From a virus: DNA of 28,187 nucleotides. This document shows positions 4,278 to 19,836 of the stretch, one piece after another. The stretch lies in IMG/VR virus record IMGVR_UViG_3300027857_000051, positions 1-28,187 of that record, one strand, 5' to 3'. The notes under the pieces were generated by a model that did no database searches, had not been told where the DNA came from, and was given only the letters and a program-made list of their open reading frames with translations. The translations under genes were made by a program, and so were the position numbers. Positions within the stretch are counted from its first letter, which is position 1. Every line of letters begins with the position of its first letter.

Positions 4278-6107
4278 TTAGCTGAACGGCGTGGTGTCCG
4301 AGACCTGGAGACCCTGGAGCAGACCGCTGTACTGCGGCGCGTGGGCGACCATGGCGCCGTAGAGGAAGATCGAGTACCGGAAGGTGGCGTCGATGACCGG
4401 CCAGGCGATGGAGACGTAGTCCTGCACGCAGGTCATCTCCCAGGCGTTGGCCACGTTGGACCACGTCTGCGGCAGCTGGTAGGTCATCAGGGCCGCGGTA
4501 CCCTGGGTCAGCCACGGGTGGACGACCATCTTCAGAACCGAGCGGGTGATCGGGTTCTGGAACTCAGAGACGGCCGCACCGACGCGAACGCCAGGCACCT
4601 CGCTCTGGTCCAGGAAGAGGCGGTAGTTCGTGGCCGCACCCTGGCTGATGACGTCGTTGGAGAGGCGCATGATGTCGCCACCCTCACCGACGATCTCAGC
4701 CGGGTCAGCGCGGAACGCACCCGGAGAGTTGGAACCGGTGTTGCCGTCCCACAGCTGCTGCAGCGCGGTGTAGATCACGTTGTAGCTGAGGTGGGCACCG
4801 ACGGCACCGTTGTAGTAGCCGCCCTGCCACCCGGACGGGTAGATGCCGCCCGTGGCGGACTTGCCGGCCAGGGTCGGGATGATGCCCTCCATGCGGGTGT
4901 TCTTACCCGTGGAGGTGTCCGTGGTCGGCGGGGTCGCGCCGGAGCCGGGGAGCGAGCCCTGGACGGTGTACTTGACACCACCGACGCCGGTCGCAACGCG
5001 GAAGGCATTGGCCGTGGTTGGAGAGCCGTTGGTGCTGACGTACACGTTGTACGAGAGGGCACCGACGGATGGGCCGATGGTCAGGTCGACAACCTGGCCG
5101 GAGGAGGTGCTGATGGTGGAGCTCTGAACCGAGACGGTCTCACCGTAGTAGTTCGTCGCGGTGACGAAGACGGTGAAGTTGGTGTTCGCACCGACCGTGG
5201 TCTCGTTGGAGCCAGCGGTACGCGCGGTGAGCGACACGACGGTCGGCGCAGCCAGCGGGGTGCTGGTACCGGCGATCATCATGTACTCCTCGCCCAGCAT
5301 CATCTCCTGGAGAAGGATGAGGTTGGCGAGCGCGGAGATGTCCTCAAAGCCCTGACCAGCGAACTGAGCCAGCCAGCTCAGAGACTCAGTCAGACCGAAG
5401 AAGCGGTATGGAACGTTGAGCTGGACCTCGGTCTGAGAACCGGTGCCCGGGATGTTCAGCGGCCAGCTGGTGCTGGACAGGGTGCCGTTGTTCTGGACGA
5501 GCTCGCTGATCGCGATGTCCAGGACGGACTGGCCACCAGTCTGGGTGCCGGAGATGCCGGTGAACACGCGCTCGATGCGGCTGGTGCCCTGGCCGGCTGG
5601 ACGTGGCAGCTTGTTGCGGAACACCGTGTACATCGGGTAGATCAGGCGAGACGGCGCCAGGAGGTCGAACGGCACGAGGCCGCTGACGGTGCCGATGCCC
5701 AGGTTACCGGCGGTGAAGCTACGAGCCAGGTCAGGGGCGGCCGCACCACCGAAGACCTGAGAGATCTGCTCACCCAAGGTTGGCATGGACAGCGCGGCCT
5801 TGAGGTAGCCGAAGTTGTCCAGGAACGACGGGTTGAGGCTCTTGACCACGCTGGCACGGTCGTGGTAGCCGCGGTGGGTCTCCGTGCGGAGGTCCAGGGT
5901 GGCCTGGTGTGCCTTGGTGGTGATCTGCATCTGGTCAGTCAGCGGCGTGTTGCCGGTGCCGGCGTAGCCAGCGCCCTTGACCATGAAGGGCATCTTCGCG
6001 GAGAGCATGTCTCCGGAGCTGGTGTAGCGGTTCGCAGAGGCCGCAGCCTCCTTGAGTGGCGACTGGCTCGTGGTCGGCGCGACCTCAGAGCCGAGAATGT
6101 CAGCCAT
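4278..6107 (-). CDS. Major capsid protein, HK97-type, with inserted Ig-like domain (609 aa)
   Basis: The ATG at 6107 has a strong AAGGAG sequence upstream. The 609-residue length exceeds the usual 300-450 of HK97-fold capsid proteins, and an insertion explains the excess. About residues 285-395 form a beta-sandwich-like segment (SLTARTAGSNETTVGANTNF, YYGETVSVQSS, LSYNVYVSTNG, VKYTVQG), typical of Ig- or fibronectin-like domains displayed on capsids. The flanking sequence is helical and mixed, with an early helical region and the C-terminal VSIAWPVIDATFRYSIFLYGA as expected for the capsid core. Gene order (protease/scaffold upstream, decoration downstream) supports the call. There is no obvious separate delta-domain boundary visible by eye. 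Confidence 0.8.
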   Translation of the reverse strand: MADILGSEVAPTTSQSPLKEAAASANRYTSSGDMLSAKMPFMVKGAGYAGTGNTPLTDQMQITTKAHQATLDLRTETHRGYHDRASVVKSLNPSFLDNFGYLKAALSMPTLGEQISQVFGGAAAPDLARSFTAGNLGIGTVSGLVPFDLLAPSRLIYPMYTVFRNKLPRPAGQGTSRIERVFTGISGTQTGGQSVLDIAISELVQNNGTLSSTSWPLNIPGTGSQTEVQLNVPYRFFGLTESLSWLAQFAGQGFEDISALANLILLQEMMLGEEYMMIAGTSTPLAAPTVVSLTARTAGSNETTVGANTNFTVFVTATNYYGETVSVQSSTISTSSGQVVDLTIGPSVGALSYNVYVSTNGSPTTANAFRVATGVGGVKYTVQGSLPGSGATPPTTDTSTGKNTRMEGIIPTLAGKSATGGIYPSGWQGGYYNGAVGAHLSYNVIYTALQQLWDGNTGSNSPGAFRADPAEIVGEGGDIMRLSNDVISQGAATNYRLFLDQSEVPGVRVGAAVSEFQNPITRSVLKMVVHPWLTQGTAALMTYQLPQTWSNVANAWEMTCVQDYVSIAWPVIDATFRYSIFLYGAMVAHAPQYSGLLQGLQVSDTTPFS

Positions 6108-6143: not shown

Positions 6144-8993
6144 CTAGACCGTGTAACCGGTCATCTTCATGAGCTGGTTCCAGCAAGCCTCGCGCTCAGC
6201 GGGGTCCGAGCTGTTCCGGATCTGGTTCTGAAGGACACTGATCATCGCGAGCTTCTGCCGCTCCGCGGCCTCAGCAACGGTAGCAGCTCCCACCGGGAGG
6301 CTAGCCGTCTTGTTGATGGTGTCACTGGTGTTGTGCTGCTGTGCGGCGCCCTTCCAGGCGGCGACAGCTGGGTCAGGAAGGTCGCCCAGCTGGTTGACGA
6401 TCTCCTGAAGCTTGGAGGTGGTGGTGGTCTGCTCGTCCAGGCGCTTGCTCATCTCAGTGAGCTGGGCCTTGAGCTCCATGAGCGCGTCCACGGTGGCGTT
6501 CTTCTCAACCTGCGGCACCGCCGCAGCCTTCTGAAGCTGCTCACCGTTGACGAGCACGTCCTCGAGGAATGGAGCCAGACCAAGCATCTGACGAGCCTCG
6601 TTGAGGCTCTTCAGTGCCTTCTTGGCCTTCTTCGCAGCCATCTTCATCGTGTCCTCAACCGGCGTCTCAACGACGGCGGCCGTGGCCTCGACGGTCTCAG
6701 ACTTGAGAGCACCATGGACTGGAACCGGCACCGGTCGGCTGGCGGCGGCACCGTCCATGCCCATGTTCGGCTGAGTGGCTGGGCACAGGTCGGGGAAGGT
6801 GTTAGCGATGTGCTCGTGCATGGCCTGCATCGCAGACTTGGCCTTGTCACGCATGCCGGTCGTGTAGTACACCCTGGTCGGCTCACCGGCTGGCACCGGC
6901 GCAGAGATGACCTCACCCTTGTTGGCTGGTGACGGAGCGGCGTGACCATCCGTCAGTGGACCTCGAGTGAAGTCATTGGCGCAGATGTGGCTGGTCGTCA
7001 CTGCGTGAGTGTTCGGACCGTCATGGCCGGGGCTGTCAGCGGCGTGACCAGCTGTGATCGAGCCACGACGGAACTGCGTCGGGTTGATCTCCATCGGCGT
7101 TGGGAAGGTGCCGGGACCAACCTGAGCGTCACTGTAGGACTTGTGAGCCTCAGCGCGAAGCTCAAAGATCAGGCTTGGGTCCACACTCTTCAGCGTCTCA
7201 GCGTGCTGCCACATCTGAGTCGCCTGACCGGCCTCATCGAGTGGAGCGGTAGCCGCAGCCTTGAGAGCCGCCTGAGCCCAATAGTTGACGTCGAGATCCT
7301 CGATGCGAGCGCTCGGGTGAGACTTCGCGACGTCGTCCAGGCAGTAAGCTGGGCACAGCATGTCGTGAAGAGAACCGATGTCATAGCTGACACCGATGTT
7401 CTTGAGACGCTCAGCAGCCATCGCCTCGTGGTTCACGTTCTTCACCGAAGAGTCAGGAACCGTGGGAAGACCTGCGTCATGTTCGAACGCCTCGATCGCC
7501 ACACCGTCAGGCTCACGATGAGCTGGCAGAGGCTGGATGTTGGCAGCACCAGCTCCGACGACACCCTCACCCGGGTCACACTTCTCAACCTCGGTGTCAG
7601 CGCTCTTGGAGATCTTGAGCTGGGAGTCGGCCATAGGAAGGTATCCCTGGTTCTCAGTGCCGCACTTGGGGCAGAACTTCTCACCCTTGTCCAGTGGCTC
7701 ATTGCCACAGGTCAGGCAGGTGAACTTGTGGTTCTTCTTCATCGTGGAGGGCTTGGCACCAGCCAGGGACTTGCCACACTCCGGGCAGAAGCTGTGCTTC
7801 TTGTCGACGTTGGCGCCACAGCCAGCGCAGAGAACCTTGGCCTTCTTCTCTACGTCAGCGGTGTCACTCTTCGGTGCCATCGGCAGCTTGCGATTGCACT
7901 CAGTGCAACGACGAAGCTTGGAGTCAGCGTCATAGCCAGTCTTGCAGTTCGGGCACGTCTTGCCACCGGACTTGGTGGTGTCCGGCTTTGCCTCGGAATC
8001 CTCTGGCTTCTCATCCTCGCTGTCGTCGAACGCCTTCTTGGCGTCCTTCGGCTTGTCACCGTCCTCAACGTCCTCGTCAGACTCATCGGTGTCATCGTCT
8101 GGACTGACGTCACCCTTAGCGATCAGCTCCATGGCGAGATCAGCCTTCCAGGACTCCGGCAGCTCCGCCACGAACGACGGACCCTTGCGACGGGCGATGT
8201 TAGTGATGCGACGCTTCAACTCATCGCTGGAGTAGTTGTCAGCGCCAGCACGACCGATAGAGGAGGCAGCATCCGACACGTCACCAGGGGTGACGATGGG
8301 AAAGCTGCGGTCACGACCGGCGAAGTCAGAGGCTGGGATCTTGTCACGGTCCACACCGCCACCGACGTTCGGGTCCATCTGACGCTTCTCAGCTGCCTCG
8401 CGGTGCTCCAGGAGCTTGGCCAGGTCAGCGGGGCTGAAGGTGGAGGCACCCTTGGTCAGCGTCTCAGTGTCACCGAACATCTTGCCAACGTACTCAGCGT
8501 GGCCGTCCTCAGCGGACTTCACCAGCTGAATGCCGCAGTTCTTGTTGGCCGGCCTGTCCACCAGGCTGATCTCAACGATGATGCCATCAACGATGCGACC
8601 ACCACGAGCGACGTTGTCACGAACGATCTTCGGACGAGCGATCCCGACGGAGTAGGCGCGAAGAGCACCCTTCTCCACCAGTCGCTTGGCGGTCGGCTCG
8701 ATGACCAGGGACTTGACCCATGTCTCACCATCCGGACCGGTGTTGGCCTCGATGCCGACACCGGCGGGGTCACGCTGAGCGTTGTGCTGAACCCGCACGT
8801 TGCCGCCGGTGGCGAGCCAGTCCTGGATCGCCTTGCCAGAGAACGTCGGGTCGACGATCTGCTCGTCAGAGTCCACAGAGCCGTCGGTGGCCTTACCATA
8901 GACGATCAGGTCACCGTCGGGAGTGGTCTCAGTCTTCTCGATCGGGAAGCTGAGGTAAGTGAGCTCCCCGCTGCTGGTCATCGTGGCGGCCAC
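6144..8993 (-). CDS. Prohead protease fused to triple zinc ribbon and scaffold-like region (949 aa)
   Basis: Residues 1-160 look like an HK97-type (S78) prohead protease: the catalytic His is in NVRVQHN (H70), the Ser in LRAYSVGI (S115), and EISLVDRPAN closes the domain. About 205-290 resembles an XkdF-like segment with IPASDFAGRDRSFPI. An acidic stretch (about 297-340) follows, then three tandem zinc ribbons: C347/C350-C363/C366, C389/C392-C403/C406 and C426/C429-C441/C444. The last third has Ala-rich helical and coiled-coil segments (about 800-870) like a scaffold. Such fusions are expected to guide capsid assembly and then be cut up by the protease. A GTG start at 8993 is chosen for the AAGGAG 4 nt upstream. 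The zinc ribbons are the odd part. Confidence 0.8.
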   Translation of the reverse strand: MAATMTSSGELTYLSFPIEKTETTPDGDLIVYGKATDGSVDSDEQIVDPTFSGKAIQDWLATGGNVRVQHNAQRDPAGVGIEANTGPDGETWVKSLVIEPTAKRLVEKGALRAYSVGIARPKIVRDNVARGGRIVDGIIVEISLVDRPANKNCGIQLVKSAEDGHAEYVGKMFGDTETLTKGASTFSPADLAKLLEHREAAEKRQMDPNVGGGVDRDKIPASDFAGRDRSFPIVTPGDVSDAASSIGRAGADNYSSDELKRRITNIARRKGPSFVAELPESWKADLAMELIAKGDVSPDDDTDESDEDVEDGDKPKDAKKAFDDSEDEKPEDSEAKPDTTKSGGKTCPNCKTGYDADSKLRRCTECNRKLPMAPKSDTADVEKKAKVLCAGCGANVDKKHSFCPECGKSLAGAKPSTMKKNHKFTCLTCGNEPLDKGEKFCPKCGTENQGYLPMADSQLKISKSADTEVEKCDPGEGVVGAGAANIQPLPAHREPDGVAIEAFEHDAGLPTVPDSSVKNVNHEAMAAERLKNIGVSYDIGSLHDMLCPAYCLDDVAKSHPSARIEDLDVNYWAQAALKAAATAPLDEAGQATQMWQHAETLKSVDPSLIFELRAEAHKSYSDAQVGPGTFPTPMEINPTQFRRGSITAGHAADSPGHDGPNTHAVTTSHICANDFTRGPLTDGHAAPSPANKGEVISAPVPAGEPTRVYYTTGMRDKAKSAMQAMHEHIANTFPDLCPATQPNMGMDGAAASRPVPVPVHGALKSETVEATAAVVETPVEDTMKMAAKKAKKALKSLNEARQMLGLAPFLEDVLVNGEQLQKAAAVPQVEKNATVDALMELKAQLTEMSKRLDEQTTTTSKLQEIVNQLGDLPDPAVAAWKGAAQQHNTSDTINKTASLPVGAATVAEAAERQKLAMISVLQNQIRNSSDPAEREACWNQLMKMTGYTV

Positions 8994-9216: not shown

Positions 9217-9422
9217 GTAGTTTCCAGCTCCTGGGTCATCGGCCCACCGTTGAGCTTCAGCTTCGCCTCCCAGGTCCCGGTGATCGGGTTGGGGAGGACA
9301 TAGCCGTGATCAGTCATGACGGCGCCATACTTGACGATCGGGCGGGAGCCGTGGTGGCTGAGTGCGTTCAGCGCCCGCTCGATGGTGATGAGGAGGTCGT
9401 GCTCAACGTTGTCGGACATCAC
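9213..9422 (-). CDS. Small protein following the portal gene (69 aa)
   Basis: Translation starts at GTG 9422 (overlapping the portal stop as GTGA) or at the next codon, ATG 9419. A GGGG sequence is upstream. The 69-residue product has an N-terminal helix (VEHDLLITIERALNAL) and a beta segment (YGYVLPNPITGTWEAKLKL-like pattern). It is coupled to the portal upstream and to the 67-residue gene downstream. Function is unknown. Confidence 0.6.
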   Translation of the reverse strand: MMSDNVEHDLLITIERALNALSHHGSRPIVKYGAVMTDHGYVLPNPITGTWEAKLKLNGGPMTQELETT

Positions 9423-12154
9423 GTCATCCCCTTGTTCTCAGGATCATCACCCTGGTGGAACTGAGAGCTGTGTGTCTCTTCCCAGTCACGACTGTCGGTG
9501 AGGCCGAGATAAGCCGGAACTGGCAAGCAGAGCTTCTGATGTGCGAGGGTTCGGTGATGACCATCAACGACCTTGACGCGATCGTCATTCGGCATCTTCA
9601 CCATCACCGCCGGATGGATTGGCTTACCCGCCTTGATCTGGTCCACAAAGTGCTGAACACGCTCTGGCTGGTGACTGGCGGCCCAGGACTTGATGGAGTC
9701 CTCATCGATGCGATCCACTGGAATCTTTGTTGGGCCGGTCCAGGTGGCGTCCTTGACCCATGCGATCGCCTTTGGTGGGTAGTTCTTCAGAAGCTGGTTG
9801 TAGACTAGCTCTTCAGTGTCACCCTTGGAGGCGTTGCTCACGGTGCCAGGGTGGTTCAGGTTGGGCTCCCACCGAGGTGGGGTGGAGTCGACCTTGCCAC
9901 CGGATGGCACTCGTCCATCGTCATATGGTCGACCCACCGGGTCCTGATACTCAGTGCCATCCTCATCGTGAGGGGTTGGCACCCGGCCACCGCCACCAGC
10001 CGCTGAGTTGACCGGGACGAAGTCCTCCCAGTATATCTGGCCGTCCATGTTGACCAGACGTCGCTGAGAGACGACCTTCACCGCATCAGCTGGGTCAAGG
10101 CCCAGTGCGAGCTGGTGGCTGACCATCCCAAGTTCCAAGCGCCCGATGTGTCGGGTCTCCCAGGTGTCAAGCTGACGCCCCTTCTTGAGATGGCGTCCCA
10201 GGGCGTCCATCTCAGAGAGGACAGCCTTGGTCTTGTCAGCGCTGAGAAGAACTCGCCTGATCGTGGAGTCCTCCGCCTTGGCGGCTGGCTTCTTTGCGGT
10301 GGCACCCTGAGCGGCAGACTCACCTGGAGTGCTGGGCTTTGTCGTTGGCTTTGCCGCTCCAGCTGCAGGTTTGACGGCTGGCTTGGCGGCCGGTGCCCCT
10401 GGCTTGGTTGGCTGGGTACCGCCTGGCGAAGCGGGGGAAGGGGCTCCGCCAGGCGGCGTCATCGCGCCCTGCTGCTGAGCCGGTGCGGCTCCAGCGGGCA
10501 GTTCAAACTCCGGCCCCGCAGCGAGGCCGGTAGCGTGGGCCTGGACCGCCTGAGCGAGCGGGATCCAGCCGTTGGCTGGGGTAGCCCACCCTGGGTCAGA
10601 CGTCTCTGGCAGACCCCAAGGCTGCAGGTTCAGCTCCTGACGGGCCTCATCGATGGAGCGGAGCGAGGCGCCGACCTGAGCGATCAACATCTTGGTCTTG
10701 GTCTCCTCGTCCTCCTTCTCCTCCAGGCCCTCAAAGACGAACCGCATGTCACCCTGGCCACATACGCCCTGAAGGATGCGGTTCATGATGGTCGCCAGGA
10801 ACATGAGCGTCGGCTTGGTGGCCTTGCGTTCCTGGATACCCTGAGTGGCCTTGCCCATCTGGTGGGCGGCACCAGGAGTGACGGTGGTGGAAACCTTCGG
10901 CATGATGCCCAGCTCCATCGGCTGGACGTCGAACGCCATACACACCTGGCTCATGACGACCTCATCGAAGGCGTCAGCCAAGTCAGCCTGGCGCTGCGGG
11001 TGGACCTTGGAGTCAGCCGGCAGCACGATGATCTTGTGGTGGAACGCCGGATCACCAGCGATCGCATTGAGCGCGTCCTGAAGCTCACGGATCTGGTTCG
11101 GTGTCATGTTGACGTTGGCGCCACCCGGCGAGATGTAAACGGCCGGAACCGTACCCTCACGGAAGTAGTCCAGCTGGAAGCCCTGCTTCTGAAGGCCGGA
11201 CATCACCGGGACCAGGGCGCGCTCGATGGGCGGAAAGCCGTACGGTGTCCACCGACGGTTCACCATCGGCAGGTACAACAGCTGCTCAACGTCGAACTTG
11301 CCCATCTCCGAGCCACGCAGGTTGCCCATCTCGATGTCACGCTCATCGATCATCGTCATGATGTCACAGCGTGGAACACCGTACAGGTACTGCTGATAGG
11401 CGGGAGCTGGTGGGCGTGGGGTCGCACCGTGGAGGTCGAACAATGGTCGGATGGTCTGACCACTGATCAGGCTCAGACTGTCCAGGTCGGAGCCGAGAAG
11501 TCCCTTGCCGTGGCCCTTCAGCCACTTCGGCCGCATGAGGAGTGAGAGAGCGTCAAAGACGAGGACCTCCTCCATGACGGAGTCGATCCAGCTGTCCCAC
11601 GAGAAGTAGTCTGGGTCAGGGCGACGGAAGAAGCGGACGGCCTCAGCTCGCCTCTTCCCAAAGTCCTTCATCTGACCGTGGCTGTTACGCATCGACTTGG
11701 CGGCATCCACGGTGGGAAGGATGTCCCACTCAATGCCGCGGATCTCAGCCTTACGAAGCTGGATGGCGGCACGTGCCACTGAGTAAAGGTCAGCCAGGGT
11801 GCGCAGAGTGTTGAAGTCTGCGAGCTTGATGCCCTCGGTGCCAGGCTGACCGACCGGGAGGTTCCAGCCAACCTGGTACTCGTGGGTGCGAGGCTCAGCG
11901 AACTCAGAGCCCTCTGGGGGCGCGTCAACCGGAGTGGGAATGATCGGACTCAGTGGTCCGAACGCACCCTCGGTGAAGTCACGTGATGGGCGCGGCAGGT
12001 ACGACTGGTACGCCTGCGCCCAGCCAGCCCCACCGCTCTCAAGCTGTGCCTGAAGCGGTGAGACCTGGCCAGCATAGATGTTCTGTGGACCGGGAGTAGG
12101 CCTGGCGCCACCAGGAATGTTCCTGGCACCACTGATGATGGAACCACGTGGCAT
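9419..12154 (-). CDS. Portal protein with C-terminal ParB-like domain (911 aa)
   Basis: The portal forms the DNA entry ring of the head. Residues about 95-545 carry the portal region: RKAEIRGIEWDILPT, a helical stem region, GFPPIERALVPVMSGL, EGTVPAVYISPGG, and MAFDVQPMELGIM, as in DUF935/SPP1-like actinophage portals. A Pro/Ala/Lys-rich linker follows (about 575-645). The last 107 residues form a separate domain: IPVDRIDEDS, a helix, PIHPAVMVKM, and D864-G-H-H-R868 in VVDGHHRTLAH. This matches the ParB/Srx-like N-terminal fold with its DGHHR nucleotide/phosphate site. The ATG at 12154 follows GGGGGTGG. The fusion makes the protein much longer than typical portals (400-550). Confidence 0.85.
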   Translation of the reverse strand: MPRGSIISGARNIPGGARPTPGPQNIYAGQVSPLQAQLESGGAGWAQAYQSYLPRPSRDFTEGAFGPLSPIIPTPVDAPPEGSEFAEPRTHEYQVGWNLPVGQPGTEGIKLADFNTLRTLADLYSVARAAIQLRKAEIRGIEWDILPTVDAAKSMRNSHGQMKDFGKRRAEAVRFFRRPDPDYFSWDSWIDSVMEEVLVFDALSLLMRPKWLKGHGKGLLGSDLDSLSLISGQTIRPLFDLHGATPRPPAPAYQQYLYGVPRCDIMTMIDERDIEMGNLRGSEMGKFDVEQLLYLPMVNRRWTPYGFPPIERALVPVMSGLQKQGFQLDYFREGTVPAVYISPGGANVNMTPNQIRELQDALNAIAGDPAFHHKIIVLPADSKVHPQRQADLADAFDEVVMSQVCMAFDVQPMELGIMPKVSTTVTPGAAHQMGKATQGIQERKATKPTLMFLATIMNRILQGVCGQGDMRFVFEGLEEKEDEETKTKMLIAQVGASLRSIDEARQELNLQPWGLPETSDPGWATPANGWIPLAQAVQAHATGLAAGPEFELPAGAAPAQQQGAMTPPGGAPSPASPGGTQPTKPGAPAAKPAVKPAAGAAKPTTKPSTPGESAAQGATAKKPAAKAEDSTIRRVLLSADKTKAVLSEMDALGRHLKKGRQLDTWETRHIGRLELGMVSHQLALGLDPADAVKVVSQRRLVNMDGQIYWEDFVPVNSAAGGGGRVPTPHDEDGTEYQDPVGRPYDDGRVPSGGKVDSTPPRWEPNLNHPGTVSNASKGDTEELVYNQLLKNYPPKAIAWVKDATWTGPTKIPVDRIDEDSIKSWAASHQPERVQHFVDQIKAGKPIHPAVMVKMPNDDRVKVVDGHHRTLAHQKLCLPVPAYLGLTDSRDWEETHSSQFHQGDDPENKGMT

Positions 12155-12228: not shown

Positions 12229-14496
12229 TTAGATGTTCACGTTCGCGTTGGCACTGCGGTTGCGGTTGCGGTTGAACGCGCGAGCGTCAGCCTCGTCGGA
12301 AACGAAGTCAGCGAGGTTGATGTGCACGTTCTGGTTCACGCGCTCATCCTCATCACGACGACGACGGCCGCCACCACACGGGTCACAGCATGGGTCCTTC
12401 TTGCACGTGGCCTCGAGGACATCGATCTTGGTGCGGAGCTGCGTCTCCGTGGCCAGGCCGCGGGCGAAACGACGCTCAGCACCCTCCTCATCGATGTGAC
12501 GGATGAGAGCGCGAGTGGCGTCCTCATCGTCACGAGAGCGACGCTCAAAGCTACGCATCTCGTCCAGGTTGCGGTCGGACAGCGTGCGAATGAGATCGTG
12601 GGTACGGTCCTCACGGTCACGCAGGTAGAGACGAGTCTCCAGTTCACTCTTCTCAACCAGACCACGTGTGCGGTCACCCTCACGCCCAACCTCACAGCGA
12701 AGCTCAGCCAGACGCTCAGCGGTGCGACGGTCGTGGTCGGAGAGAGACTCCGACAGCTCCTCCAGGTTGTGGGTAACCTGGCGCTCGATCTGGTGCTCGA
12801 TGCGGCGCTCGGCCTGGTCGAGGTGGTGCGTGGACCGACGCTCGAAGTCGTCGGTGCCCTTGGTCAGACGGCGCTCGGTGCCGTCGACCTCCTTGGTCAG
12901 GCGACGCTCCGTGCTGTCCGCGTTGTGGGTCAGACGGCGCTCGGTGTCATCACCGTTCTTGGTGAGACGGCGCTCCGCGTCATCCGCGTTCTTGGTCTGA
13001 CGCAGCTCGGACTGGTAGATGTCGCGCTCGATGTTGCGCTGCACCATGTCGAGGTGGTCGACACCACGGCGCTCGGCCTCGCGCGCGAAGTCGCCCAGAC
13101 GGCGCTCGGTGTTGCAGACCTCGTCCCCGAGGTCGCCGAACGCCTCCGCGTTCTCCTCGCCGTAGTGGGCGAGACGGCCCTCGATGCGGCGCTCGGAGTT
13201 GGTCAGGTGGTCAGCCAGGCGCTCACGGCCCGACGCACCCTCACGACGACCGGCGTCGATGTCACGCTCGATACGACGCTCAGCGTCGGCGAGGTGTTCG
13301 TTGGTGTGGGCGAAGCCCTTCTCGCTCTCGCGACGGCCACCATCGACGTTGCCGTCCAGCCACTTCGCATCGCGCTCCTGGCCCTCGCGCAGGAAACGGG
13401 TGTCGGCACCCGCCTGCTGCGCGAGCCGCCACGCGTTCGCGTCCTGACCAGAGTGAAGCCACTTCGCGTTGCCGTTGACGGCCTCACCCAGCTCACCCAG
13501 GTCACGGCGAACCTCGCGACCCTCACCACGCACGTCAGAGCGAGTCTCACGGCCATCCTCACCGATGTGACGGTGAAGGTCGCGCTGACCGCGCTCCAGC
13601 CAACGAGCGTTGTCGTTGACACGGTCATCCGTCAGACGCTGACCACGCTCGGTCTCACGGAAACCCTTGTTGACGTCGCGATCAACGTCATCGATCTCAG
13701 AGTCGAGGTGGCGCACGCCGTGGCTGACGGCGTCCTCAACGTCATCAACCTCACGCCCAAGCCAGCGAGCGTTCGCGTTGACCTGGTCACCAACCCAACG
13801 ACCGTTGGCGTCCACGTTGCGGTCGGTCGCAGCCTGGCTACGAGCGGTGCGCTCGAAGCCGTCACCGACGTGGTGGTCCAGCTCGAAGATGTTGCGCGCG
13901 TTGAACTGCGCGTTGCGATTCGCCTCCGCGTCCAGGTACATGGTGTCCTGGTTGATCTGACGCGCGGTTCCGATGAAGCCCTCGGCGACCCGACCATCGG
14001 TGTGACGCTGACCGTTGGACAGGTGGTCGACGCCCTCGGTGACCAGATGGTCAGTGTGACGCTGGCCATTGGCCAGGTACTCCACGCCGTTGGAAATGCG
14101 AGAGTCGGTAAAACGCTGTCCGGTCAGGTCGGCGAGGGTACCGTCCTGGACCGCACGGTCAGTGACGCGCTGACCCGCCTCCAACGCGAGGGCCGCGTTG
14201 CCGACGTGGCGATCGACGCCCTGGATGGACATCAGAACGCGCTGGGTGTCATCGTCGTCATCCCAACAGGTTGGCATGGTGTCGGCCATATACTCCTTGC
14301 TTGAGGTGTTGCCGTCCATGTTTGGTGATGCACTGTCGCTTTCAGGCCCTTCCATAGCCTGAGGCGTCAGGTGAACGTCGCCGACTACGTGAATGTCAGC
14401 TGGCGTTCCTTCAAACTGAAAATCACCACTAACGTGGATCTCCCAGTTTGCTGAACCAGGAGTGACATCGGTGGCGCGAAACGTAGCGCCAGACAC
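12229..14496 (-). CDS. Long repeat-rich coiled-coil fibre protein (755 aa from GTG)
   Basis: This is a predicted elongated appendage. Residues 1-35 continue a tail-fibre module (TNTVSGATFRATDV, SANWEIHV). Then come several repeat systems: four 18-residue units starting GQR-x-TD (about 13960-14175), recurring NARWL/NAKWL units, and 11-residue units starting ERRLT (about 12790-13010), which fit long helical coiled coils. Near the end is a Cys cluster (CKKDPCCDPC) and a basic RRRRD stretch. The GTG at 14496 is the first listed start, yet the frame stays open and protein-like up to 14598. A second candidate, ATG at 14289, has a strong AAGGAG 4 nt upstream and would give 686 residues. It sits between the spike and portal genes. 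Confidence 0.65.
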   Translation of the reverse strand: MSGATFRATDVTPGSANWEIHVSGDFQFEGTPADIHVVGDVHLTPQAMEGPESDSASPNMDGNTSSKEYMADTMPTCWDDDDDTQRVLMSIQGVDRHVGNAALALEAGQRVTDRAVQDGTLADLTGQRFTDSRISNGVEYLANGQRHTDHLVTEGVDHLSNGQRHTDGRVAEGFIGTARQINQDTMYLDAEANRNAQFNARNIFELDHHVGDGFERTARSQAATDRNVDANGRWVGDQVNANARWLGREVDDVEDAVSHGVRHLDSEIDDVDRDVNKGFRETERGQRLTDDRVNDNARWLERGQRDLHRHIGEDGRETRSDVRGEGREVRRDLGELGEAVNGNAKWLHSGQDANAWRLAQQAGADTRFLREGQERDAKWLDGNVDGGRRESEKGFAHTNEHLADAERRIERDIDAGRREGASGRERLADHLTNSERRIEGRLAHYGEENAEAFGDLGDEVCNTERRLGDFAREAERRGVDHLDMVQRNIERDIYQSELRQTKNADDAERRLTKNGDDTERRLTHNADSTERRLTKEVDGTERRLTKGTDDFERRSTHHLDQAERRIEHQIERQVTHNLEELSESLSDHDRRTAERLAELRCEVGREGDRTRGLVEKSELETRLYLRDREDRTHDLIRTLSDRNLDEMRSFERRSRDDEDATRALIRHIDEEGAERRFARGLATETQLRTKIDVLEATCKKDPCCDPCGGGRRRRDEDERVNQNVHINLADFVSDEADARAFNRNRNRSANANVNI

Positions 14497-14870: not shown

Positions 14871-16901
14871 CTATGCCGTCTCGTACCAGCCCCACACGCT
14901 GTTGACACGCGCGGGGGTAACGGTCACCTTACTGTACTGACCGGTGAGAGCGACGAAGCTTGCTCCGTTGATCAGCTCACTGCCGTTTGCGACAACGTGC
15001 AACGTGTTACCAGTGCTGTCGATGCGAACGACCGTGATCACCTGAGGTGTCCAAGCGGCGCTCAGCAGGTTCACCGTGGTGTTACCGGTGGATGCGTCAA
15101 CCAGGAGGACGCGATCAATGACACCGACACTGTAGTTGGTCGTGCCATGCACCCACTGTGCTGGACTACCCTGTTGGCCGTTGATGATGTTGAGACCAGT
15201 GGGAGCTGTTGTGTTCACACCCGATGGACTGTACAAGCCAGTGAGTGTGATTGTGCCCAGAGCGGCGTTGAGACCGGTGCCGGACGTGCGGTCAGTGAAC
15301 GTCGGATCTGCGATCTCAGTGTCGATGTTTGCGAAGACCCACGGACCGATGCCGTTGGAACCAATGCCGATGATGTTGACGACGTTCGGACACGCCTCGA
15401 TGCTAGCCTGCTGGATGGCGATCGAGTGAGTAGAACCAACCGAGCCGAAGTAACTACCGACCGGGCAAAGACCAGACCAGCAGTACAGGATGCACAGACG
15501 ATCACAAACGAAGTGCTCCGTTGCGAAGATCCCGAACGTGTACCCACCGTGGCAGCTGACGTTCGCCGCTCGGTTGTTGTCGTTGTTGCCATTGGCTGGC
15601 ATGAGCAAGCCGATGGACAAGCCGTTACCGAGAAGAGCCGGGCTGCTGTAGCTGCCGAGCTGAACGGAACCAGTCGTGCCGTAGGCGAAGTTCTCCAAGT
15701 TGGCCTCAGCCAGTCCAGAGAAGTCAACGGCGGAGTAGGTGAACCCATTGACGCTGTGCGTGGTGAGAATCGACAGGTTCCGCAGGGTCACAAGCTTGTT
15801 GTCGAACACCGAGGTGCCAGTGCCGTAGCCGCCAGGCTGAGCCGGCCCACCGATCACACACGGGTTACCGTTGGTGTTGATCGAGTTGGTCTGGGCCGTG
15901 GAGTTTGCGAACACTCCGAAGCTGACCAGGGTGGAGCCGTTGACCTGCTGGTTCAGCTGCTGCCAGTGCTGAAGGCCGGCACCGTTGGTCACACCCTCAA
16001 TGGTGAGGATGACCTTGTTGGCGGAGGTGGCTACCGGCGCGCCCAGGGTGAGCTGGCTGTTGCCGAGGGTGGAGCCACCGGTGATCAGTGAGCCAGCGAC
16101 GCCGTAGAACCGACCAGTGCTGGTCGGAATCCTGACGACGGCGCTGCCGTGTGTCGTAGCGTAGCTGAGAGCGGCGTTGATCGCCGACTGGATCGCAGAG
16201 GTGTCATCAGTGGCCCACATGGCGACGGTAGCGCTGACGTTGCCACCGGAGGCGTTCGTTGCCGCCAGCGTCACCTGAGTAGACGACTGGAACGAGGCGA
16301 TCGTGGTTACCAAGGTGGTGACACCACTGGCACCAGCACCGAGGACCATGATGTGCTTGTTCACATCATTGGAGGTGAACAAGCCACTGGCAGAGGTCAG
16401 AACGGCGGAGCCGCTTGACATCGCAGCATCAGTGACGAACTCACCGTCACCCTTGGCTCCGTAAGCCGCGGTGGTGACGTCGAAGATCCAGGGGGTGGCC
16501 TGTGGCAGCTGGCTGACGTTGACGGCGTCTGTCGATGCGACACCGACTGCGAGATGAGTGATCTTGTGGCTGTTGTTCGACCAGTCACCTGCCGGTGGCT
16601 GATCAGTGGCAATCACGTCCAGAGTGCCGGTGTGCACAGTCGGGTTGGTCCCAGTGCCACCGATGACGATAGAGGTGTCACCAGCTGTGATCGAGGCGAC
16701 CCCAGAGGATCCGAATGGCTGGCCGGAACCCCAGGCGCCTGCCGTCTTCGGACCGTACATCACAAGGGCGGTAGGCGTGCTGTTGTCGATGTACCAGTCA
16801 CCATCGATGCCGAGGGTACTGGATGGGGCACCATGTCCGTTGTAGATGGTGTTGCCACGAGGACCACTGGTGCCACCAGATGAGATGACGACGACGCTCA
16901 C
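14871..16901 (-). CDS. Tailspike-like protein with pectate-lyase-type beta-helix (676 aa)
   Basis: The N-terminal 60 residues hold a fibre-type module (GDWYIDNSTPTALVMYGPKT). KITHLAVGVASTDAVNVSQLP (about 113-133) is a linker motif common in tail fibres. AYGAKGDGEFVTDAA (about 146-160) is the start motif of pectate-lyase-3-type right-handed beta-helices, followed by a long series of short beta turns to about residue 580. The C-terminal domain (STGNTTVNLLSA...VNSVWGWYETA) matches small terminal beta domains of phage spikes. It likely binds and may degrade a cell-surface polysaccharide; catalytic residues cannot be assigned by eye. The GTG start overlaps the upstream stop as GTGA. Confidence 0.75.
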   Translation of the reverse strand: MSVVVISSGGTSGPRGNTIYNGHGAPSSTLGIDGDWYIDNSTPTALVMYGPKTAGAWGSGQPFGSSGVASITAGDTSIVIGGTGTNPTVHTGTLDVIATDQPPAGDWSNNSHKITHLAVGVASTDAVNVSQLPQATPWIFDVTTAAYGAKGDGEFVTDAAMSSGSAVLTSASGLFTSNDVNKHIMVLGAGASGVTTLVTTIASFQSSTQVTLAATNASGGNVSATVAMWATDDTSAIQSAINAALSYATTHGSAVVRIPTSTGRFYGVAGSLITGGSTLGNSQLTLGAPVATSANKVILTIEGVTNGAGLQHWQQLNQQVNGSTLVSFGVFANSTAQTNSINTNGNPCVIGGPAQPGGYGTGTSVFDNKLVTLRNLSILTTHSVNGFTYSAVDFSGLAEANLENFAYGTTGSVQLGSYSSPALLGNGLSIGLLMPANGNNDNNRAANVSCHGGYTFGIFATEHFVCDRLCILYCWSGLCPVGSYFGSVGSTHSIAIQQASIEACPNVVNIIGIGSNGIGPWVFANIDTEIADPTFTDRTSGTGLNAALGTITLTGLYSPSGVNTTAPTGLNIINGQQGSPAQWVHGTTNYSVGVIDRVLLVDASTGNTTVNLLSAAWTPQVITVVRIDSTGNTLHVVANGSELINGASFVALTGQYSKVTVTPARVNSVWGWYETA

Positions 16902-17185: not shown

Positions 17186-17565
17186 GGAGCTGCCACCACC
17201 CTCGCAGTCATGGTTCCGGTGAGAAGCGCGGTGGCGTCAGTCAGGTTGGGATCCATCCACAACGCGACGGCGTAGACGTCAGTGCCAGTAAGCAACGCCG
17301 TGGCGGTCGGTGAGGCCACCACCTGGATCGTGGAGGTGGCCGTGTTCACCGTGATCTGACCGTTGGCACCTGAGGTGGTGGTCACCGTGAAGACGGGCGA
17401 GGAGGCACGAGAGCTCGTCCTGACCACCAGCTCAAAGGTCTTGTTGGTGATGTTCATCAGGGTGCCATCGTCGTTCTGAAGCTGGAACGAGTAGACCCAC
17501 TGAGATCCCGGAACGGCGAAGGTGGTCCACATGGCTGGCACAGTGGGGATGATCGGTGTACTCAC
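17182..17565 (-). CDS. Putative Ig-like / BppU-N-like appendage protein (127 aa)
   Basis: The GTG at 17565 overlaps the terminase stop as GTGA and has GGAGG upstream. The 127 residues form a beta-sandwich pattern: WVYSFQLQNDDGTLMNITNKTFELVVR, PVFTVTT, GQITVNTATSTIQVVAS and DVYAVALWMD. This resembles N-terminal domains of baseplate upper proteins (BppU) and related Ig-like modules that anchor fibres. Next to a spike and a fibre gene, it may be an adaptor for them. The assignment is by fold pattern only. Confidence 0.55.
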   Translation of the reverse strand: MSTPIIPTVPAMWTTFAVPGSQWVYSFQLQNDDGTLMNITNKTFELVVRTSSRASSPVFTVTTTSGANGQITVNTATSTIQVVASPTATALLTGTDVYAVALWMDPNLTDATALLTGTMTARVVAAP

Positions 17566-19235
17566 GCGTCATCCTCCTCTCCAGTCAACACCAGCTCGTT
17601 GGGATCCTTCACACCAGCCCCACAGAACGGACAGACGCTTCGCCTGGACCCGTTCACGTGGGTCATGAAGCCTCGACGGCACCCTGTGCACTTGACGGTG
17701 CCATAGGCGTCGTGCCAGTTGCCCTTCTCCGTCCAGAAGGCCTGAACGACCGCGTCACCCTTGTCGGTGGAGCGGCCGATCCGCTTCTTGATGTCCTTCT
17801 TGGACTCGATCTTGATCTTGCCGCCGCTGAGGACCTCACCGGAGTGAGGAGCGGTCAGGTCACCCAGCAGGCTGTCATCCGGTGGCAGGCAGATGTCACT
17901 GCCAGCGGATGGGTCGAGGAGCTCCCGCAGGTTCCACCAGGCAGCGGAGCGGGCGTTGGAGAAGCCCATCTCGCCGGTCTTGTCCCTGCGGTAGCTGGTT
18001 GCGGCGGCATTGAACGCCTGGACCCGCGCTCCCATCTCCTTGAGACGGTCGTACACGCCGGCGCCGATGCCGATGACGTCCACGATGGCTGTGCGCTCAG
18101 GCTCACCCTCTAGGATGGCCATCACGTTGCCGGTGGTCGTCATGGTGTCGTTCTTCGAGTACGAGCGGATCTCGGTGATGACGTGACCATCCCGAACCGC
18201 CAGACACGTCTTGTCATCACCACTGCGAGCGACGTCGACACCGACGGTCATCGGCTTGCCAGGGGCCCGTCGCCCGTTCTCGTTCCACTCATGCCAGCGC
18301 TCATTGGCAGCCTCAACCCAGCTGAGTGGGATGACACTGTCCTCGTCACCAGAGTAGAACTCACCGAGGACGCGGTTCTGATAGAGAGCGCTGTGCTCGC
18401 CCCACTGGGCCTTACGTTGATCCGCCCACTTCTGGGAGATGCGGTTGGCCTTGATGGCGTCAGCCAGGGTGACGTGGACCGGGCACCAGTCCTCGTAGCC
18501 CGGCTTGCGCGCGTGGATGTCATAGAACCGCCCCTGGGGTGGGCCAGGGGTGGAGAGCGCCATCGCATACGTCTCACCGGTGCCGGAGAAGGCACCCTCA
18601 CACGCGTCGAAGGTGCCAGCGTTGATGGACTTGCTCTCATCATAGATGAAGAGCAGGCTGTCAGCGTGGGCACCCTCGATGAGGGCCGGGTTCGACGCGG
18701 CTGCCGCGAAGGCTGACCCATACTGCAGACGGAGAGCCAGGTTCAGCATCTCAGCGTTGGTGAAGGGGCGGTCTCGCACCTTGTCCCACTTGATGCGGCC
18801 GGCCCACTTGTGGATCTCAGGGCTGAGGTAGTTGATCAGCTGGCGCCAGGCACCTGCGGTGTAGACCGCCTTCCAGTCCACCCCATTGGCGTCCCTGGTG
18901 AGGGCGAACCACAGAATCGTGAAGGCGCTGATCGTGGACTTGCCCAGGCCGTGAGGGCCACGAACGGCGACGCGATGGTGTTCCTTCAGCTTCTGAACGA
19001 TGTTGAGCTGATAGAAGGTCAACCCATCAGAGTTGCCCCAGTCGATGCAGTTCTCAGCGAAGCCGATCGGATCATCATAGTACTTCGCAACACCGGTGTT
19101 GAACTTCTCCGCCTCACGTTGCAGCTTGCGCAGGTAGGCGAGCTTCTCCAGCTTCAGTTCATCGATGGTGTTGTAGTACGGCTCCAGGCCAGCACCGGAG
19201 CCGTACTCCTCCGGTGGGACCTTGAAGTTACTCAT
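17562..19235 (-). CDS. terL: Terminase large subunit with C-terminal zinc ribbon (557 aa)
   Basis: This is the ATP-driven DNA packaging motor and nuclease. The ATPase part has Walker A G93-PHGLGKS-T101 and Walker B LLFIYDE (D199, E200). The RNase-H-like nuclease part has D334 in TVGVDVARSGDD, D386 in AIVDVIG and D494 in KGDAVVQAF, in the right order for the three metal-binding acids. The last 45 residues add a zinc ribbon, C516-x2-C519...C535-x2-C538, which most large terminases lack. The ATG at 19235 (MSNFKV) overlaps the small-subunit stop by 8 bp; the longer frame to 19277 is not favoured. Confidence 0.93.
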   Translation of the reverse strand: MSNFKVPPEEYGSGAGLEPYYNTIDELKLEKLAYLRKLQREAEKFNTGVAKYYDDPIGFAENCIDWGNSDGLTFYQLNIVQKLKEHHRVAVRGPHGLGKSTISAFTILWFALTRDANGVDWKAVYTAGAWRQLINYLSPEIHKWAGRIKWDKVRDRPFTNAEMLNLALRLQYGSAFAAAASNPALIEGAHADSLLFIYDESKSINAGTFDACEGAFSGTGETYAMALSTPGPPQGRFYDIHARKPGYEDWCPVHVTLADAIKANRISQKWADQRKAQWGEHSALYQNRVLGEFYSGDEDSVIPLSWVEAANERWHEWNENGRRAPGKPMTVGVDVARSGDDKTCLAVRDGHVITEIRSYSKNDTMTTTGNVMAILEGEPERTAIVDVIGIGAGVYDRLKEMGARVQAFNAAATSYRRDKTGEMGFSNARSAAWWNLRELLDPSAGSDICLPPDDSLLGDLTAPHSGEVLSGGKIKIESKKDIKKRIGRSTDKGDAVVQAFWTEKGNWHDAYGTVKCTGCRRGFMTHVNGSRRSVCPFCGAGVKDPNELVLTGEEDDA

Positions 19236-19836
19236 TGATGGCCGGGCGCACCTTGCTGGCGTGCACCTGGGCCTCAAGACGGGCGATCTCAGCGTCGATG
19301 GAGTCGATCGTGATGACCTCAGCCCTGGTCGGTGCGTCCAGACCCAGCATCCTGGCCCGACGCTCCTTGATCTTCAGGATGCGGTCGACCATCTCCAGGA
19401 CGAAGCGGTCATCCTCAAGTGGCTCACCGGTCTCATCGTGAACAACGCGACCGTTGGAGACGAGCACGTGACGGTTGCGGAGGGTCCGCCAGGTGGTAGC
19501 TTCCAGCTCCTCAAGTGACTGCATTTCCATGATCCGCATCTCATCGTACGCGAACCTGACGGAGCGGGCGAGAGCCCTGCGGATCGCTGCGGCGGCCCTG
19601 GAGGTGTCCGGTCCGAGCCTCAGCCTCTCACAGATCTCTGGAAGGGTGTAGCCGATGGCCTTCAGACGGGCCGCTTCCGCGTCCCGGTCGAAGCCACGCT
19701 TGTAGAGGTCAGCGCCCTCACGCGGCATCGGCATGAGGTACTGCTCCTTGACGGGAGCCTTGTCCTCCGGCTCGTCCGCGTACTCACCGCTGTCATCAGG
19801 GTGATAAACGACGTCACCCTCGATCTCATCGCTCAC
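19228..19836 (-). CDS. terS: Putative terminase small subunit (202 aa)
   Basis: The gene lies directly upstream of terL and overlaps it. About residues 50-90 form a helix-turn-helix (AARLKAIGYTLPEICERLRL), followed by long helices (about 95-165), RRARMLGLDAP, which is common in small terminase subunits, and a C-terminal helix. These subunits bind the packaging start and regulate the motor. The start is GTG 19836 with a weak GGTGG upstream. The first 40 residues are acidic and probably disordered. It is the first gene after the promoter at about 19900. Confidence 0.8.
   Translation of the reverse strand: MSDEIEGDVVYHPDDSGEYADEPEDKAPVKEQYLMPMPREGADLYKRGFDRDAEAARLKAIGYTLPEICERLRLGPDTSRAAAAIRRALARSVRFAYDEMRIMEMQSLEELEATTWRTLRNRHVLVSNGRVVHDETGEPLEDDRFVLEMVDRILKIKERRARMLGLDAPTRAEVITIDSIDAEIARLEAQVHASKVRPAINE

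Follow-up and report, generated by a model that had tools for sequence, protein, structure and literature searches.

A viral portal protein with a C-terminal ParB/Srx-type domain, possibly a head-borne effector

What does a ParB-type domain do at the end of a viral portal protein? The question is raised by a minus-strand gene in a virus record of IMG/VR (IMGVR_UViG_3300027857_000051, 28,187 bases; this whole stretch of DNA is the window below). The initial annotation had described the gene product as a portal joined by a Pro/Ala linker to a ParB/Srx-like domain and had suggested a role at packaging or ejection. The fusion itself is confirmed by Pfam (PF04860), by PHROG 2662 and PHROG 1033, and by an AlphaFold2 model with its Foldseek matches. 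The gene has the following features, all on the minus strand.

9419-12154, minus strand: portal-ParB/Srx fusion gene, 911 aa (ORF and translation, ATG start)
10613-11974, minus strand: portal core, residues 61-514 (Pfam PF04860, PHROG 2662, HMM built here)
10238-10612, minus strand: Pro/Ala/Lys-rich linker, residues 515-639 (sequence)
10304-10333, minus strand: STPGESAAQG, a variant of the conserved linker motif [ST]P[GAQ][HE]xxA (motif counts in linkers of relatives)
10055-10216, minus strand: conserved helical element ELDALxRHxRKGR.., residues 647-700 (HMM built here)
9455-9826, minus strand: ParB/Srx-superfamily domain, residues about 777-900 (AlphaFold2 model, fold search, PHROG 1033, profile against PDB)
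9671-9673, minus strand: H828, aligned to catalytic E30 of SerK (profile alignment; His in 67 of 74 relatives)
9551-9565, minus strand: D864-G-H-H-R868, motif of phosphate-binding type (sequence, conservation in relatives)
9461-9472, minus strand: H895-S-S-Q898 (H and Q kept in every copy of the DGHHR subfamily, 74 of 74)

The N-terminal part is a portal of the HK97/SPP1-like family. The curated PF04860 profile recognizes residues 286-509 (E 3.5e-10; 40.0 bits, just above the cut-off of 39.1) and PHROG 2662 matches residues 86-694 with E 4.8e-44; the portal is the only Pfam family above cut-off in the whole protein. The linker (about residues 515-640) is present as described earlier and is Lys-rich as well, and the DGHHR motif does lie at D864-R868, with the protein ending 43 residues past it. 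Besides the portal, the helical element and the ParB-like domain no other module was detected in the 911-aa ORF, and a search of the window 3′ of the portal stop found no MuF, Nudix or Cys-motif module that might have been lost from the ORF.

The C-terminal domain belongs, by its predicted fold, to the ParB/Srx superfamily. Residues 829-875 match PHROG 1033 (‘ParB-like partition protein’) with E 3.8e-6; the Pfam scan of the C-terminus gave sub-threshold matches to ParB-superfamily models only (ParBc_2, DndB, DUF1015 and ParB_N). An AlphaFold2 model of residues 774-910, made from 12 sequences (pLDDT 88, pTM 0.82), has the alpha+beta order of the ParB/Srx type. Foldseek against PDB placed sulfiredoxin, Noc, PadC, ParB, SbnI and SerK at the top of the list with probability of about 1.0, at modest E-values of 1e-3 to 1e-2; the VIA-align Z score was 9.3 for sulfiredoxin (88 residues, 2.5 A), 9.0 for Noc, 7.8 for ParB and 7.4 for SerK. 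Viral structure models matched in the fold search bear ParB/Srx annotation. Structure prediction and comparison with ParB and Srx folds had been proposed in the initial annotation as a check, and the adverse outcome that it named, a fold unlike ParB, did not appear in AlphaFold2, Foldseek or VIA-align. Only the extent of the domain has to be corrected: a start at residue 805 is too late, as both conservation and the model make two helices at 777-802 (including W799) part of the conserved unit.

Within the superfamily, the domain carries the phosphate-binding motif (GxxR / DGxHR / GGCHR type) in the form DGHHR. The features of a canonical ParB CTPase, the DNA clamp, are missing: there is no GERRxRA, no HTH for parS binding and no dimerisation domain. 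The catalytic Cys of sulfiredoxin (GGCHR) is replaced by His866. A PDB search with a profile of 12 relatives gave SerK with E 7e-4, SbnI with E 0.006 and Noc with E 0.4; thus, the nearest relative by sequence profile is SerK, the archaeal free serine kinase, followed by SbnI, both of them nucleotide-using kinases. In this light the ParB analogy drawn earlier stands for the fold and the motif, while the nuclease and CTP-clamp analogies are weak, because the nearest sequence relatives are the SerK/SbnI kinases and both HTH and GERRxRA are absent. The catalytic Glu of these kinases is not found either; His828 takes the place of E30 of SerK in a profile alignment that adjoins an indel and is therefore moderately certain. 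With His828 aligned to E30, the domain is not predicted to carry out the specific reaction of SerK.

The kinase kinship also bears on the idea that the domain is a head-borne, ParB-like DNase directed against host DNA or competing elements. Some ParB/Srx proteins are said to be nucleases, by report or by proposal, as discussed in PMC5512222 (Iyer et al. 2017) and PMC3482391; however, the original nuclease assignment of RK2 ParB was called confused (PMC3482391), and the P. furiosus homologue of SerK was first reported as a nuclease, with SerK later shown to be a kinase (PMC5120207). The Pfam ‘nuclease’ matches (ParBc_2) are very weak, and a free nuclease next to packaged DNA would require strict control. 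We consider a DNase very unlikely.

How constant are the domain and its motif? Twelve portal relatives were found by patterns that leave out the motif; DGHH is kept in all 12 and Arg in 11. A second search, with the portal core alone as query, yielded 67 distinct portals: the domain is in the same ORF in 56, in another ORF of the locus in three and absent in one, the remaining seven being cut by contig or locus ends. From the 71 domain matches of this search three cut by contig ends were left out, and DGxHR is kept in 67 of the 68 complete copies (55 with DGHHR, the rest with DGW/Y/R variants), so that the loss of DGHHR in homologues, the second adverse outcome named beforehand, did not occur. 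A larger set of relatives was picked on DGHH and W-A/S-A/S motifs; because both were selection criteria, the 100% conservation of DGHH and WAA in that set is no independent evidence. Beyond the motif, H895 and Q898 are invariant in all 74 non-redundant copies of the DGHHR type and missing from the DG[WY]HR subfamily. The dN/dS ratio of close pairs, where computable, is roughly 0.04-0.3, i.e. the domain is under purifying selection.

These data can be set against the view that the domain serves for binding only, or is structural (an internal head or tail-interface protein), with the enzymatic function of the fold lost. Such a loss would agree with the unconserved SerK catalytic Glu and with a subfamily, DG[WY]HR, that does without the THxxQ motif; but the invariant residues D864, H867, R868, H895 and Q898 are polar and go beyond core residues alone, and dN/dS is low. 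We regard a domain of this kind as quite unlikely.

This second subfamily of portal-borne ParB-like domains was seen in L144, L146-L150, L152, L156 and L164; it has DG[WY]HR, RRPGGARD replacing WAASHQ, and no THxxQ. A scan of GTDB with query A1 found no relative. The same scan with the DG[WY]HR subfamily found three weak relatives (one in a MAG contig, and two small proteins), and the fetched stretches were without a portal. Small bacterial proteins with a DGYHR ParB/Srx-like domain are encoded at 1339-1758 of L172 (a Chthoniobacterales MAG) and at 4758-5138 of L173 (Chryseobacterium); these are possible cellular relatives of the domain. A second DGHH match upstream of the portal in L001 and L002 is out of frame and was rejected as spurious.

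The company that the domain keeps is varied. In the 74 non-redundant ORFs that bear it, the same ORF contains a portal in 60 cases, Nudix in 49 and MuF in 37, with rarer modules being the Cys-rich motif (19), 2H phosphoesterase (5), ART (2), zeta kinase (1) and an Arr-like module (1); these counts come from HMMs built here and seeded with Pfam-supported examples, and the Arr-like match is below the Pfam cut-off. Module order varies among these ORFs. The helical element accompanies the portal in 60 of the 74, and its distance to the ParB-like domain ranges from 15 to 811 residues across relatives. In some relatives the domain sits in the gene after the portal: among 11 complete cases of a domain ORF without portal, eight adjoin a portal ORF, and the other three (L042, L062 and L090) have ART-like matches in an adjacent ORF.

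Portal and domain also diverge separately. L001, the nearest relative, has a portal core 97% identical and a domain 59% identical to those described here, and carries a C-terminal Cys-motif extension that the 9419-12154 ORF is without. Conversely, the domains of L080 and L085 are 43-44% identical to the present copy while the portals are merely 23-27% identical (44% and 23%, respectively, in L085). Over 1275 pairs, portal identity and domain identity are barely correlated (rho 0.17). Given the varied partners, order and spacing and this uncoupled divergence, the domain behaves as an exchangeable module. The relatives show the hallmark of polyvalent/portal-effector proteins, in that effector modules which can be exchanged are joined to a head protein; these modules are Nudix, MuF, 2H, ART and zeta kinase.

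Two further observations concern the portal ORFs. The Cys motif, CxxCxMF..C..DVCDxW, lies beside the ParB-like domain at 8815-8943 of L001 and in other portal ORFs (19 of the 74 non-redundant ORFs) and is perhaps metal-binding. Inserts of roughly 260-420 residues split the portal core in L041, L055, L076, L079 and L143 with the frame staying open; they are probably inteins, and residues 575-622 of L041 give a sub-threshold LAGLIDADG match.

The exchangeability has to be weighed against a function in the head itself, in which the domain would be a nucleotide-switched DNA-binding or gating module that works like the ParB CTP clamps and helps to package, retain or eject the DNA. The domain is fused to the DNA gate, shares its fold with CTP-binding ParB and Noc, and is near-universal in the portal clade, as expected of a core head function. 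Yet HTH and dimerisation domain are missing, DGHHR stands in place of GERRxRA, the domain lies hundreds of residues nearer to the portal in some relatives than in others, versions in separate ORFs exist, and the partners are Nudix, ART, 2H and zeta modules. The role at packaging or ejection suggested initially thus finds no support in the variable spacing, the separate-gene copies, the divergence of portals that carry similar domains or the effector modules alongside. We judge a head function unlikely; near-universality in the clade argues against its outright dismissal and keeps it a low but real possibility.

If the domain is instead an enzyme that leaves the head, it might have to be cut from the portal, and the linker and the neighbouring genes are of interest in this respect. 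The loose motif [ST]P[GAQ][HE]xxA is present in 49 of 56 distinct linkers versus 1.0 expected in shuffles, and its strict, H-only form in 43 of 56 versus 0.1 expected. It stands out in portal linkers that are otherwise of low complexity and is a candidate cleavage or assembly signal. The fusion gene lies within a minus-strand late-gene block that includes the following genes.

4278-6107, minus strand: probable major capsid protein (gene order; PHROG 13692, function unknown, E 8.6e-57)
6144-8993, minus strand: head maturation protease with a long C-terminal extension including a double zinc ribbon (weak PHROG 3270/80, Pfam DZR)
17562-19277, minus strand: terminase large subunit (PHROG 2, E 5.2e-35)

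The protease-type protein contains two T-x-G-H-A-A-x-S-P repeats that resemble the linker motif and recur in the proteins of relatives; it is a candidate enzyme for freeing the ParB-like domain. Between terminase and portal the block also encodes a long repetitive, probably coiled-coil protein (12229-14496, minus strand) and another protein that matches a YadA stalk (14871-16901, minus strand), an unusual site if these are tail or adhesion proteins.

Because it mixes with known injected-enzyme modules in related phages, the domain is probably not part of the DNA motor; an enzyme that travels in the virus head is the most likely reading. By analogy with these, the protein would be a polyvalent-type portal with a head-borne, nucleotide-dependent ParB/Srx enzyme that would act as soon as the DNA has entered the host, a reading to which we give a probability of about 0.6. 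The C-terminal side of portals generally faces the capsid interior. An otherwise ordinary portal would thus hold the flexible linker, the helical anchor and the ParB/Srx-fold domain at its C-terminus inside the capsid, alongside the DNA. The domain is predicted to bind nucleotide via DGHHR and, as the most likely chemistry, to perform or control phosphotransfer or NTP hydrolysis, with a nucleotide or some other small molecule as substrate. The head protease may cut the linker and release the domain, which would be delivered with the DNA like the published portal/MuF effectors, fusions of ART, 2H and Nudix (PMC5512222; NAD-ADPr survey 2022, PMC9503650). Possible targets in the host are, e.g. 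nucleotide or NAD-type defence signals.

At the level of sequence, the varied modules, the decoupling of portal and domain, purifying selection, the conservation of DGxHR and the kinship with kinases favour the effector. Other points count against it. The domain is nearly always there (56 + 3 portals versus one absence) whereas the presence of MuF and Nudix varies, and a typical arms-race effector shows less constancy; furthermore, most copies are still joined to the portal, which normally remains in the virion. A broader proposal is tentative, and we hold it to be more doubtful than not: that the domain represents a family, so far undescribed, of phosphotransferases with the ParB/Srx fold and a DGxHR motif, which are borne in the head as standard in a large uncultured phage clade, often share their portal with Nudix and MuF, enter the host with the DNA and modify a nucleotide-type metabolite or defence signal. 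A true injected enzyme would be a defined, testable candidate for early takeover or counter-defence; a domain working in the head would give the portal a part that depends on nucleotide.

Nearly all members of the phage clade, for which environmental contigs are the only source here, have the ParB/Srx module. A tblastn search of 50,697 records of cultured phages with the present domain and three relatives (one from the DG[WY]HR subfamily) gave no match. A survey of the ParB-CTPase fold, across which CTP, ATP or GTP is bound, was searched with Pfam PF02195, of which the portal domain falls short, and the word ‘portal’ is not in its text (PMC12704722). The domain thus escaped the Pfam ParB models, the tblastn search and, judging by its text, the recent fold survey. 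No ParB/Srx domain on a portal was found in the open-access papers searched; a report elsewhere is possible.

Among solved structures the nearest relatives by profile, SerK and SbnI, have the DGHHR motif and the fold in common with the portal domain; SerK differs in having E30 at the position aligned with His828 and in the rest of its chain (240 aa), which is missing from the present protein, itself a portal fusion. The ParB/Noc CTPases and sulfiredoxin share the fold, while HTH, dimerisation domain and GERRxRA are missing from the portal domain. Gp3 of the Arthrobacter phages Mufasa8 and Sonali is a homologue of the portal (26-27% identical over 38-44% of the query) to which Nudix, MuF and a helical element like the present one are fused; unlike the 9419-12154 product, both translations are without a DGxHR domain. 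The polyvalent and MuF/portal-effector proteins described earlier (PMC5512222, PMC9503650) are, like the relatives here, head or portal proteins that bear several effector modules, Nudix, ART and 2H among them; they are encoded in a late-gene locus and are predicted to be packaged and injected. The ParB domains in the covered part of those two papers are of the DdrB type and belong to other polyvalent proteins; a portal with a ParB/Srx domain of the DGHHR type is not described there. DdrB-like ParB domains in polyvalent proteins are thus already published, as are fusions of portals to MuF, Nudix, ART and 2H; to the list of portal fusions the present gene adds a ParB/Srx-type module with predicted nucleotide binding.
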